From a virus: 23,140 nucleotides of DNA. Position 1 is the first letter of the stretch, and every line of letters begins with the position of its first letter. Location of the stretch: positions 1 through 23,140 of the IMG/VR virus record IMGVR_UViG_3300025132_000317. One strand, written 5' to 3'. The position numbers and the translations under genes are program-made. The notes under the pieces are model-generated. The model saw only the letters and a program-made list of their open reading frames with translations. It was not told the DNA's origin and did not search any database. Positions 17,412 to 20,749 of the stretch are shown here, in pieces.

Positions 17412-17825
17412 TTATTTATGTTTATTATTACCCATTACTTTTTCAATTCCACGACTTCCAAAATAACTTCCTATTATTATAGTCAAAACACCTGATATTG
17501 AATTTAATTCTAATCCCCAATACCATCCTATTACATAAGCAATAGAAAAAAATATTAAAGTTAGAGGTCTAACATTTGCTGTAAGCCATCCGCTTTTTCC
17601 ATCTGATTCCCATCTTCGTGTAATCGCTTCCATTTCAGCTTCTTCTATTTTTAATTTTTCAAGAGCAATCTGTTTGTCTTCAGCACTCATGTCACTACCC
17701 CCGATTATAGCTTTAATTACTGACCCCACAGGAGTGTCATTAGCTATATCACCTACTATACCTGGAATTTTATTTAATAAAAATTTTCCGACTCCAGTAT
17801 CCTTGAAAGATTTTTTTTTACTCAT
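17412..17825 (-). CDS. Holin of the 3TM / gene-transfer-agent type
   Basis: A 137-residue membrane protein. The motif RWESDGKSGWLTANVRPLTL (residues 71-90) is typical of the GTA-holin-3TM-like family (SW-L-x-x-x-V-R-P-x-T-L). Two clear membrane segments follow at ~87-107 and ~109-123, with a possible weaker one at ~34-43, and the tail is basic. Holins permeabilise the inner membrane so the endolysin can act. The start overlaps the endolysin stop as ATGA, forming a lysis pair. Confidence 0.8.
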   Translation of the reverse strand: MSKKKSFKDTGVGKFLLNKIPGIVGDIANDTPVGSVIKAIIGGSDMSAEDKQIALEKLKIEEAEMEAITRRWESDGKSGWLTANVRPLTLIFFSIAYVIGWYWGLELNSISGVLTIIIGSYFGSRGIEKVMGNNKHK

Positions 17826-18286
17826 TTAATTATTTTATATATAGTTTTACCAAATTCTTTTTCAGCAAGTAAAACTCTATTTCTGTTTTTACCTTCTCCT
17901 TGATAACTTACGTGTATCCATGCCGGATTGTCATCATCACCAAACTCCCATATTAATTGATCAAAATTACAATGAGACCTTATCCAGTCAAACATTTGTT
18001 TATTAGTCTTACATCCATATACATCATCAATGTCCATTGCCATACCTTTGCAATGTTGGCTGGAAGACGCCCCGTTTAAAGCTTTATTTAAATTTTCAGA
18101 TCTAAACATGCTAGTTATTTTTATTGGGCCTCCTACCCACAACCTTAAAGGTTCAAAAATTTTTTCTGCCAACTCTATCATATTTTTAGTTTGCTCTTCA
18201 TTAGGTGTATTTTCTATTCCGCATCTTTTAGCTGTATTTGAATGTATAGCTTCAGCGTATGTTATATGCTTACTAATTCTCTTCAT
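17822..18286 (-). CDS. Endolysin, peptidase M15 family (D-Ala-D-Ala/L-Ala-D-Glu type)
   Basis: A 154-residue protein with the M15_3-type arrangement: KITSMFRSENLNKAL (57-71), then SSSQHCKGMAMDID (74-87) holding zinc ligands H78 and D85, a catalytic acid candidate E114 in LIWEFG, and the third ligand H125 in WIHVSY. The family hydrolyses peptide bonds in peptidoglycan cross-bridges. There is no signal peptide, so it depends on the adjacent holin. It is joined at both ends by ATGA overlaps, with the small membrane gene before it and the holin after it. All key residues are present. Confidence 0.88.
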   Translation of the reverse strand: MKRISKHITYAEAIHSNTAKRCGIENTPNEEQTKNMIELAEKIFEPLRLWVGGPIKITSMFRSENLNKALNGASSSQHCKGMAMDIDDVYGCKTNKQMFDWIRSHCNFDQLIWEFGDDDNPAWIHVSYQGEGKNRNRVLLAEKEFGKTIYKIIK

Positions 18287-18513
18287 ATATTTAATTTTAA
18301 TATTAAATAAAAAATTGCTGGTATACTAGAATATAAAAAGTCCATAAATTCAGGATTTCCTTTGCTCATATACCAGTCATAAACAATTTCCTTTCCTGCG
18401 TACAAAGTTAATGAAAATATAAATCCATAAATAGAGAATATATATATAAGAGGAAAGGCAGTTATTCCTCCCCAAAAAAAGTGTAATAACTTATCTTTAG
18501 GGATTTTATTCAT
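18283..18513 (-). CDS. Small membrane protein, 76 residues
   Basis: Two hydrophobic segments (residues ~13-38 and ~60-75) around a central polar part KEIVYDWYMSKGNPEFMDFL. The motif KDKLLHFFWG at 6-15 and the DK-x-x-H...KE-x-x-D layout resemble a small VanZ/DUF-type membrane family I have seen in marine phages, but I cannot name it. The start overlaps the beta-barrel gene stop by one base (TAATG) and the stop overlaps the endolysin start (ATGA). Context suggests a lysis accessory. Confidence 0.7.
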   Translation of the reverse strand: MNKIPKDKLLHFFWGGITAFPLIYIFSIYGFIFSLTLYAGKEIVYDWYMSKGNPEFMDFLYSSIPAIFYLILKLNI

Positions 18514-19688
18514 TACAGTCTAATGTTAAACCCAACAGACGATTGATATATTTTAGAATCCCAAAACTTTGTATATTCGGTTTCAACAAATATACCTAAA
18601 CTTTTTGATAATTTCCATCCGAAAGAAATTCCTGCTTGATAGTCTTCCCACTGCTCAAGATTAGCGTTTTCAATTAATCCACCTAAGCCCCAGTTGTTTC
18701 TATTTAAATAGCTAAAATCTAAATCTCCTTTAACATATTTATGATAAGGTAGTAAGTAAGAACCAAATGCATGTATCCAGAAGTTTCTTTTATAATGATA
18801 TACGTCAAAACCTATGATTGGACTAACTACTCCAAAAGCATCAAGATCATTCCAAATCTCTTGGTTATACCTATTCATTAAATCAGCAAAAACTGTATCT
18901 CTAAATTCCAAATCTGTATTAGCTATAATTTCTCCATCAGGATTAATCCAATACCAGTCGGATATTTCATTTCCACTTTCATCTTCTTGAGTGTAGTATA
19001 TATCATCATATCCATAATCAAAACCTAATGAGTACCATGGATTTACTGGCCAACCATTTTCGTCAGTTTCATTTAACCATATTTCAACCGGGTTATATCC
19101 ATAAGGACGATCATGAGTTCTTAAGATTGCGCCTACAGAAATACTTAACTTTTTACCTATTGGTAATTTTGCTCTAACTTCTGCAGCTTTATAATTAAAA
19201 TCGACTCTACCTTGTTTTCTACTCTCTAGTTTTATGACATGGTGTTTACCACTGTGTTTTAAAAAATATCTATGATTGGTAAACACTTCATCTCTTGATC
19301 TTTCTTTTTCATAATGAAAAGTATATTCCAAACCATTTACAGAGGAGTTGGTTGCAGATAATCCAATATTATTTTCTGTGCCATCATAATAATGTTTACT
19401 TTTAATTTCATAATCAAATCTTGCTAGTTTGCGTATCCCTATGCCATATCGATAATCGAAATCATAATAATCAGTGCCGTCTACCACTACCGGCGGAGCA
19501 TACAAATTACCATCAGGATTTGTTCTTACAAAATAATCTTTTACATTTTCTTTTGGATTGTCTATATTACCAGCTACATACAGAGTGCTATATTTAAATA
19601 ACTTGTTAAATATATTATCTTTTTTGTTTTGAGAATTTAAGTTCCAGCATAAGCCTAGAACTAATATAATAGTTGTTATTTGTTTCAT
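18513..19688 (-). CDS. Exported putative outer-membrane beta-barrel protein
   Basis: A 391-residue protein with a signal peptide (MKQITTIILVLGLCWNLNSQ; likely cut near S|Q). The rest has many alternating aromatic/polar strands (YDFDYRYGIGIRKLARFDYE, KLSISVGAILRT, YQAGISFGWKLS, LGIFVETEYTKFW) and ends SSVGFNIRL, like the C-terminal strand of outer-membrane proteins. The middle (~215-275) is Asp/Glu/Trp/Tyr-rich, like long external loops. It is unusual for a phage late operon: it could alter host receptors, block superinfection, or help open the outer membrane at lysis. The cysteine in the signal peptide does not fit a good lipobox. Barrel topology is inferred from pattern. Confidence 0.6.
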   Translation of the reverse strand: MKQITTIILVLGLCWNLNSQNKKDNIFNKLFKYSTLYVAGNIDNPKENVKDYFVRTNPDGNLYAPPVVVDGTDYYDFDYRYGIGIRKLARFDYEIKSKHYYDGTENNIGLSATNSSVNGLEYTFHYEKERSRDEVFTNHRYFLKHSGKHHVIKLESRKQGRVDFNYKAAEVRAKLPIGKKLSISVGAILRTHDRPYGYNPVEIWLNETDENGWPVNPWYSLGFDYGYDDIYYTQEDESGNEISDWYWINPDGEIIANTDLEFRDTVFADLMNRYNQEIWNDLDAFGVVSPIIGFDVYHYKRNFWIHAFGSYLLPYHKYVKGDLDFSYLNRNNWGLGGLIENANLEQWEDYQAGISFGWKLSKSLGIFVETEYTKFWDSKIYQSSVGFNIRL

Positions 19689-19695
19689 ATTATCT

Positions 19696-20019
19696 TTAAA
19701 ATTTACTTTCGATTATTTCATCAATTTTATCTTCGATTTGATTGATTGTGTCCTCGGGTAATTTTAATGATATCCCTGATTCTACTCTATGATATTCTTC
19801 TCCATTATATAATAATATAACAGTAGGAATATATTTAAGTTTATGTTTTTTGAATTTATCTGGGTTTTCAGACATATAAATAGTTCTAGTCTGATATTTA
19901 AATTTTTTTAAAGAAATTTCGTTGTCTATAACAAACGAAGCGCTGAATTGAATTATTTCTATATCAGTTTGAGCAAAACTAAAACATGTTATAAAAAAAA
20001 TAATTATTGCAGATCTCAT
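19696..20019 (-). CDS. Exported thioredoxin-like protein lacking the CxxC motif
   Basis: A 107-residue protein with a flavobacterial signal peptide (MRSAIIIFFITCFSFA|Q). The mature part has a thioredoxin-like order: strand IEIIQFSASF (20-29), an SASFV stretch where WCxxC would be, NPDKFKKHKLKYIPTVILL (52-70) with the cis-proline at P65, then YNGEEYHRVESG and a C-terminal helix. I recall related phage proteins with the same lost cysteines. It cannot perform dithiol exchange, so a binding or scaffold role in the periplasm is likely. It starts right after the stop of the previous gene and ends seven bases before the beta-barrel gene. Confidence 0.55.
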   Translation of the reverse strand: MRSAIIIFFITCFSFAQTDIEIIQFSASFVIDNEISLKKFKYQTRTIYMSENPDKFKKHKLKYIPTVILLYNGEEYHRVESGISLKLPEDTINQIEDKIDEIIESKF

Positions 20020-20334
20020 CTACTTTTTACTTATTTGATAAAGTCTTTCGTCAATTTTAGAAAGCTGATCTTTTATTTCACTTATATCATCTCCTAATAC
20101 ATCTTGCTTTTCCTCTAATCTTTTTACTGTTGATCTCACTAGTTCATCTTTATATTGAAACTCTATTGGGTTTACAGAGTTTTCTTTTAATGCAACAACA
20201 TCTTCGGTGTTTTTAGATACTGCAGCCGAAAGCGTTAAATAAGTTGTAGCTAAAGAAATAGTAAACCCTATTATAATTGCTATTGTTTTTATATCAAGTC
20301 TTACTTCTGTTTCTTCACCTATCTTATGTGCCAT
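20020..20334 (-). CDS. Membrane-anchored coiled-coil protein (i-spanin-like topology)
   Basis: A 104-residue protein with one hydrophobic segment at ~15-37 (TIAIIIGFTISLATTYLTLS) and then a charged coiled coil (VKRLEEKQDVLGDDISEIKD QLSKIDERLYQ in sequence, residues ~69-100). One N-terminal anchor plus periplasmic coiled coil is the layout of inner-membrane spanins, though it is also common in other phage proteins. No lipoprotein partner is visible within or next to it. One-base gap to the upstream gene. Confidence 0.6.
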   Translation of the reverse strand: MAHKIGEETEVRLDIKTIAIIIGFTISLATTYLTLSAAVSKNTEDVVALKENSVNPIEFQYKDELVRSTVKRLEEKQDVLGDDISEIKDQLSKIDERLYQISKK

Positions 20335-20335
20335 C

Positions 20336-20749
20336 TTATTTCTTTTTGCTTGCAGTTACTTTACTTTCTCCTTTAGTAACTGTAACGTCTGTATCAGTCA
20401 CATCTACTTGCATAGGATCATCTTCTTTATCAGAAAGTTCTTTAATCAAACTTTTAATTATTTCTAGTTCTGGTTTTTCTTCTTTTTCCTTAGCACCAAC
20501 TATGTGTTGTAAAATACCTATTAAGGCCATTGCAGCTGTAGAAACAAGACCTATTACCGCTGTTAAGGCTCCTCCTTCTAAAAACTGAGAACTAATAACT
20601 CCAATTACAACTAGTATAGTTATGTAATTAATTCCATGCTTACCTAAATGCTTTGAAGCAATTTCTTTAGCTGTGCTTTTAGCATTAATTTTATCAATTT
20701 CTATTTGAGCTAAAATTTCTTCAGTAGTTTTTTTGCTATTAAATTTCAT
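20336..20749 (-). CDS. Small membrane protein, possible second holin
   Basis: A 137-residue protein: a polar helical N-terminus (1-38), two membrane segments (~40-56, INYITILVVIGVISSQF, and ~60-84, GALTAVIGLVSTAAMALIGI), then a charged tail ending VTVTKGESKVTASKKK. The hairpin of two membrane helices with a charged end resembles class II holins or small membrane accessories. It opens the envelope/lysis run and is preceded by TATCTTTG only five bases away. Not recognised as a named family. Confidence 0.65.
   Translation of the reverse strand: MKFNSKKTTEEILAQIEIDKINAKSTAKEIASKHLGKHGINYITILVVIGVISSQFLEGGALTAVIGLVSTAAMALIGILQHIVGAKEKEEKPELEIIKSLIKELSDKEDDPMQVDVTDTDVTVTKGESKVTASKKK

Follow-up and report, generated by a model that had tools for sequence, protein, structure and literature searches.

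A conserved three-gene cassette beside the lysis genes of marine viruses

Three adjoining genes at positions 18513-20334 of the linear virus record IMGVR_UViG_3300025132_000317 (23,140 bases; hereafter the window, a fragment and not a whole genome) encode a coiled-coil protein with an N-terminal transmembrane segment (CC), an exported thioredoxin-fold protein (TRX1) and a predicted outer-membrane β-barrel (BAR). The CC, TRX and BAR genes lie close together and are inherited as a set, mostly beside an endolysin gene and often with a holin gene, and TRX1 has lost both redox cysteines of thioredoxins. On balance, we lean slightly towards the interpretation that CC, TRX1 and BAR form a three-part trans-envelope device for the outer-membrane step of lysis in phages of mostly marine Bacteroidota. 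An earlier note, made from the sequence alone, had described a seven-gene run at this position, and the open reading frames (ORFs) match it exactly in coordinates and overlaps: all seven are located on the minus strand between positions 17412 and 20749, and their junctions, read from 20336-20749 to 17412-17825, consist of a 1-base gap, a 0-base junction, a 7-base gap and TAATG, ATGA and ATGA overlaps (Table 1).

The conservation of the cassette was determined by clustering and hidden Markov model annotation of the genes neighbouring its relatives, with BAR sampled at 111 unique loci flanked by at least 1.5 kb on either side. Both CC and TRX are encoded on the same strand within 2 kb of BAR in 110 of these loci, an M15 or amidase endolysin is found within 5 kb in 96/111 and a holin is located nearby in 49/111. 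The constant unit is CC-TRX-BAR or BAR-CC-TRX, around which the order, small intervening genes, endolysin type, holin, a YfiM-like gene and a lipoprotein gene vary, and the non-homologous M15 and amidase endolysins occupy the same slot beside it. Such conservation in many divergent contigs is far beyond chance. Viral contigs contain at least 440 CC, 342 BAR and 265 TRX2 relatives (TRX2 being a second TRX class, described below), and the uncultured marine viruses that carry the cassette number in the hundreds, their hosts apparently being Bacteroidota.

The window furthermore encodes a portal protein and a terminase. The latter matches 87 phage records, namely of 68 Flavobacterium, 15 Cellulophaga, two Tenacibaculum and one Maribacter phage and one uncultured podovirus, the Manatee Spring phage (71%), and all of the terminase relatives with a recorded host infect Flavobacteriaceae. 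Together with the AQ-cleavage signal peptides of the exported proteins, these relatives suggest that the host of the virus is very likely a member of the Bacteroidota. BAR, CC, TRX1 and TRX2 were not found in 50,697 phage records by tblastn, and BAR, TRX and CC belong to no confident family in Pfam, PHROGs or NCBIfam, with the exception of a long TRX1 relative that is assigned to the Pfam thioredoxin family. A host origin of BAR was considered and is unsupported, as the only hits of a pattern-based scan covering 84,980 species genomes were three contigs from a single metagenome-assembled genome (MAG). These three contigs (L084, L085 and L086), binned in the Woesearchaeota MAG PBPJ01, are best read as mis-binned Bacteroidota phage DNA.

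Features of the three proteins

Hydropathy analysis of 141 unique CC relatives places a single transmembrane segment from about residue 17 in most, and inspection of the C-terminus shows regular heptads (VKRLEEK-QDVLGDD-ISEIKDQ-LSKIDER-LYQISKK). A single N-terminal transmembrane segment followed by a predicted periplasmic coiled coil is the architecture of an i-spanin, as the earlier note had recognized. CC is found in 116/116 unique modules, and its junction with TRX is tight (-4, -1 or +1 in 117 cases). Several CC-like paralogues are present in some phages, and extra copies adjoin the holin or endolysin gene apart from the CC-TRX pair (L196:7295-7597, L162:280-612 and L296:6822-7106).

The assignment of TRX1 as an exported thioredoxin-like protein was supported: the AlphaFold model of the window protein has a predicted local distance difference test score (pLDDT) of 86, its Foldseek matches are thioredoxins, and profile searches of the PDB gave E-values down to 3e-8, while the long TRX1 relative clears the PF00085 threshold (31.5 bits; cut-off: 23.5). 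The TRX proteins share the fold and the cis-Pro region with the thioredoxin family but differ from it in being exported, with a Bacteroidota-type cleavable signal peptide (xxAQ-like) in 136/138, and in lacking the CxxC redox site, which is absent from all 151 TRX1 and all 51 TRX2 sequences. The two classes are homologous (hhalign probability: 99; TRX searches used single sequences and TRX2-only rows). A C-terminal Phe, a further difference from thioredoxins, is found in 147/151 TRX1 proteins but in 0/51 TRX2, and Asn occupies both Cys positions in 51/51 TRX2 as well as in many long TRX1. The possibility that TRX is a lipoprotein was rejected, given that the Cys of the FITC/FLTC motif is not conserved in other TRX proteins.

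In the modules examined, TRX1 and BAR are invariably paired. Among the 116 unique modules, BAR is present in 98/98 with TRX1 and in 0/18 with TRX2 only, where the sequences are related and the counts do not represent independent events. Many TRX1 loci were gathered via BAR; in a CC-based sample, unselected for BAR, TRX1 is nevertheless always accompanied by BAR, truncated contigs excepted. Eight modules hold both classes in the order CC1-TRX1-BAR-CC2-TRX2-endolysin, followed in some phages by a holin. CC is located directly upstream of TRX2 in 48/49 TRX2 loci, and an endolysin, holin or lipoprotein gene directly follows TRX2 in 40/49.

For BAR, the earlier suggestion of a signal peptide and a β-barrel is supported by an xxAQ-like signal peptide in 129/151 relatives and by structural matches, but the model itself is only middling (pLDDT: 66; predicted template modelling score: 0.58). 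The model of this predicted outer-membrane barrel contains about 12 long strands, and its best Foldseek matches are outer-membrane barrels, including those of NanC (E-value: 5e-6), FapF, EspP, OmpG and BamA, with TM-scores of approximately 0.2-0.35 normalized to the query. BAR resembles 12-stranded outer-membrane barrels such as NanC, FapF and EspP in its predicted fold and signal peptide, but shares no sequence similarity with them, belongs to no sequence family in Pfam, PHROG, NCBIfam or PDB, and is restricted to viral contigs and the one probably contaminated MAG. A distant viral protein of 342 residues (A0A516LKJ4) matches it at 26% identity. Its nearest structural neighbours, NanC, OmpG and FapF, are porins and transport barrels, which favours the alternative that BAR is a phage-encoded porin or uptake channel that alters the flow of nutrients into the infected cell, CC and TRX helping in its assembly. 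We regard this as very unlikely, since the fold similarity is no closer than to any barrel, and the obligate inner-membrane coiled-coil partner, the loss of the TRX redox cysteines and the lysis gene context would all be left unexplained.

A proposed outer-membrane lysis device

In the mechanism that we propose, CC would be fixed in the inner membrane while its coiled coil extends into the periplasm, in the manner of an i-spanin, BAR would provide the anchor on the outer-membrane side that is otherwise an o-spanin lipoprotein, and TRX1 would serve as a non-catalytic adaptor linking the two. Following triggering by the holin and clearance of the peptidoglycan by the endolysin, CC-TRX1-BAR would act, either by collapse or oligomerization of the coiled coil, drawing the membranes together, or by destabilization of the outer membrane around the barrel, so that the virions are freed.

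This arrangement resembles two-component spanins, such as Rz/Rz1 of phage lambda (PMC6139136), in combining a coiled-coil protein with an N-terminal transmembrane segment, a holin and an endolysin, and a gene overlap with the partner. It differs in that the outer-membrane component is a predicted barrel, a third protein with a thioredoxin fold invariably accompanies the other two, and no product matches the spanin families of PHROGs or Pfam. With unimolecular spanins (u-spanins; T1 gp11) it would share the provision of a specific step at the outer membrane of Gram-negative hosts, but it comprises three proteins rather than one, none of which has a lipobox and a C-terminal transmembrane segment. 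The earlier note had remarked that no lipoprotein o-spanin was visible, and a lipobox search across the 23 kb window, covering every frame and every start, found no credible ORF: neither a lipobox outer-membrane lipoprotein beside or overlapping CC, as in o-spanins, nor a protein with an N-terminal lipobox and a C-terminal transmembrane segment, as in u-spanins, is encoded there. Because this search did not reveal the lipoprotein that defines a spanin, we would not class the cassette as one.

The two main alternatives to a three-part device are a separate lipoprotein o-spanin and a function in superinfection exclusion. According to the former, CC is an i-spanin whose conventional lipoprotein partner is encoded in some modules or outside the fragment, and BAR and TRX1 play an accessory part in tuning the envelope. 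The best candidate for such an o-spanin is LIP, an exported lipoprotein family with the core KVLAVTxxGDTIQLDVNSLRPRVY (e.g. L013:4254-4670, L299:1812-2153 and L249:4391-4708), which among the loci examined is limited to CC-TRX lysis cassettes, in the placements M15-LIP-HOL, BAR-LIP-CC and CC-TRX2-LIP-HOL. It is present in contig G017 and is more common in BAR-less (6/18) than in BAR modules (8/98; Fisher p=0.008, ignoring relatedness), and the window, being a fragment, could lack a partner encoded elsewhere. However, 90/98 BAR modules have no LIP nearby, an ORF scan of the 62 kb contig G013, from the same group as the window, found no credible lipoprotein, and the strict pairing of TRX1 with BAR would be left unexplained. 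We consider this explanation improbable.

The latter alternative, that the cassette spans the envelope for superinfection exclusion or receptor shielding, with BAR mimicking or blocking a host surface protein, and is merely carried in a late operon with the lysis genes, is similarly unlikely in our estimation, if marginally less so. Several relatives have the cassette apart from the endolysin, and BAR clades have been exchanged between otherwise similar cassettes (L101 and L103 share 94% identity in CC and 79% in TRX, but 43% in BAR), a pattern that antagonistic selection on a surface protein would produce. Superinfection exclusion genes are usually early-expressed and optional. The cassette, by contrast, is near-invariant, has an endolysin within 5 kb at most loci, and has a paralogous pair, TRX2-CC, located directly within the lysis genes.

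A number of observations weigh against a lysis device. In contigs G001, G006 and G007 the endolysin is located approximately 12, 20 and 19 kb from the cassette, respectively, so that what the earlier note had named as grounds for refutation, barrel and Trx genes away from the lysis genes, is in part observed. In one siphovirus-like group (L097-L106, L126 and L154) the cassette is situated amid head and tail genes. Furthermore, the barrel model is of middling confidence, CC weakly resembles a holin family (phrog_1296; E-value: 9e-4), LIP could be the true o-spanin in the eight BAR modules that contain it, and 12/18 BAR-less modules also lack LIP, and as such some phages may lyse without either. 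Finally, BAR distances track those of the M15 endolysin at least as well as those of TRX or CC; mirror-tree co-divergence did not set CC, TRX and BAR apart as a group and was rejected as proof of a complex.

A distant cassette is compatible with a role in lysis, since the lysis genes of T4-like phages are also unclustered (PMC6139136). The distant endolysin-holin modules of G001, G006 and G007 include no lipoprotein or u-spanin of their own, which leaves the cassette as the sole candidate for the outer-membrane step within the DNA examined. The position among head and tail genes might instead suggest that the cassette encodes components of the virion or of genome ejection, spanning the envelope during entry and not at lysis, but we consider this highly improbable: the cleavable Bacteroidota-type signal peptides of TRX and BAR indicate export from the producing cell, and most loci group both genes with lysis genes. 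The Bacteroidota-specific outer-membrane lysis device put forward in the earlier note is partly supported, by the near-invariant association of the three genes, the usual proximity of an endolysin, the frequent holin and the Flavobacteriaceae-linked terminases, but is tempered by the three contigs with a distant cassette and by the additional lipoprotein in a minority of modules.

Neighbouring genes of the window

The holin and M15 endolysin recognized in the earlier note were both supported by family matches. The former is a holin-like protein (phrog_3427; E-value: 3e-9) with a putative role in hole formation, while the latter contains a Peptidase_M15_3 domain (Bitscore: 50.6; cut-off: 23.2; E-value: 2.3e-13) and matches the endolysin family phrog_894 (E-value: 6e-27). 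The seven genes do not form a unit as a whole: it is CC-TRX-BAR that is near-invariant, while tm76 is present in 11/111 BAR loci and restricted to the phage group of the window, and g137 is an optional, independently distributed gene that occurs in many unrelated contexts, sometimes beside a holin. Comparison of tm76 with the YfiM-like family of other cassettes gave an hhalign E-value of 2.5e-4 (probability: 43). A family with the pattern DK-LHF-GG...KE-YD (window 18283-18513; YfiM-like L005:900-1262 and L057:7593-7916) recurs beside BAR, its members being exported or lipoproteins in some relatives and a plain membrane protein in the window.

Across very different phages (distinct relatives, L220-L259), g137 proteins share 66-100% identity, mostly 85-97%. 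Recent horizontal transfer was rejected as the cause, as identity at third codon positions drops to just 61-68% among the seven loci that are more distant; the sequences point to extreme protein-level constraint on an optional gene.

Table 1. Genes of the seven-gene run in the window and transmembrane-rod-β proteins of cassette-less relatives
Feature	Position	Strand	Description	Basis
g137	20336..20749	-	Membrane-hairpin protein, optional but hyper-conserved; gene immediately upstream of CC	Identity and gene contexts of relatives
CC	20020..20334	-	104 aa; N-terminal transmembrane segment and predicted periplasmic coiled coil, i-spanin-like	Hydropathy, heptads
TRX1	19696..20019	-	107 aa; exported thioredoxin fold, no redox cysteines, ends in Phe	AlphaFold, PDB profile search, Foldseek
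BAR	18513..19688	-	391 aa; signal peptide, predicted outer-membrane β-barrel	AlphaFold, Foldseek
tm76	18283..18513	-	76 aa; multiple transmembrane segments, weak relation to YfiM-like proteins	hhalign
M15 endolysin	17822..18286	-	Peptidase_M15_3	Pfam, PHROG
Holin-like protein	17412..17825	-	Holin-like	phrog_3427
Cellulophaga phi38:1 gp084	L261:14185-14784		Transmembrane-rod-β protein (phrog_25644)	
Flavobacterium elemo phage gp32	L082:20614-21159		Transmembrane-rod-β protein	
Manatee Spring podovirus (MW202828)	L083:10391-11014		Transmembrane-rod-β protein, 208 aa	

Cassette-less relatives and implications for lysis in Bacteroidota phages

In three relatives that lack the cassette, elemo, the Manatee Spring podovirus and phi38:1, an unannotated protein with an N-terminal transmembrane segment, a rod and C-terminal β-strands is encoded adjacent to, or within approximately 2.5 kb of, the endolysin gene (Table 1). 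Judged by inspection, it resembles a trans-envelope device made of a single protein and is a putative outer-membrane lysis factor. As in the cassette, it is located near the endolysin and could reach from the inner to the outer membrane through its β-strands, but it is one protein rather than three, and no relationship in sequence with BAR, TRX or CC was detected. If these proteins do function in this manner, a β-anchored step at the outer membrane may be a general feature of this set of phages.

An outer membrane protein has been proposed as a possible o-spanin by Kongari et al. (2018; PMC6139136), in whose survey Bacteroides and Croceibacter phages are among those lacking spanins. The u-spanin is the only spanin type assigned to Bacteroidetes phages (PMC12596118), and a survey of flavophages names spanins in a few isolates only (PMC8776804). 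The literature searches made returned no account of a lysis module that includes a thioredoxin. A broader proposal, to which we give somewhat less than even credence, is that a separate lysis machine of three parts for the outer membrane arose in phages of Bacteroidota. In this machine the o-spanin lipoprotein would be replaced by an outer-membrane barrel together with a thioredoxin adaptor that has lost its redox function, and the BAR-less sister CC-TRX2, sometimes accompanied by a lipoprotein, would be an alternative version.

The means by which phages open the outer membrane of the Bacteroidota, which are among the most abundant marine bacteria, are largely unexplained, and the CC-TRX1-BAR cassette represents a concrete candidate. 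BAR and TRX1 would furthermore provide a marker for the annotation of lysis modules in marine viromes.

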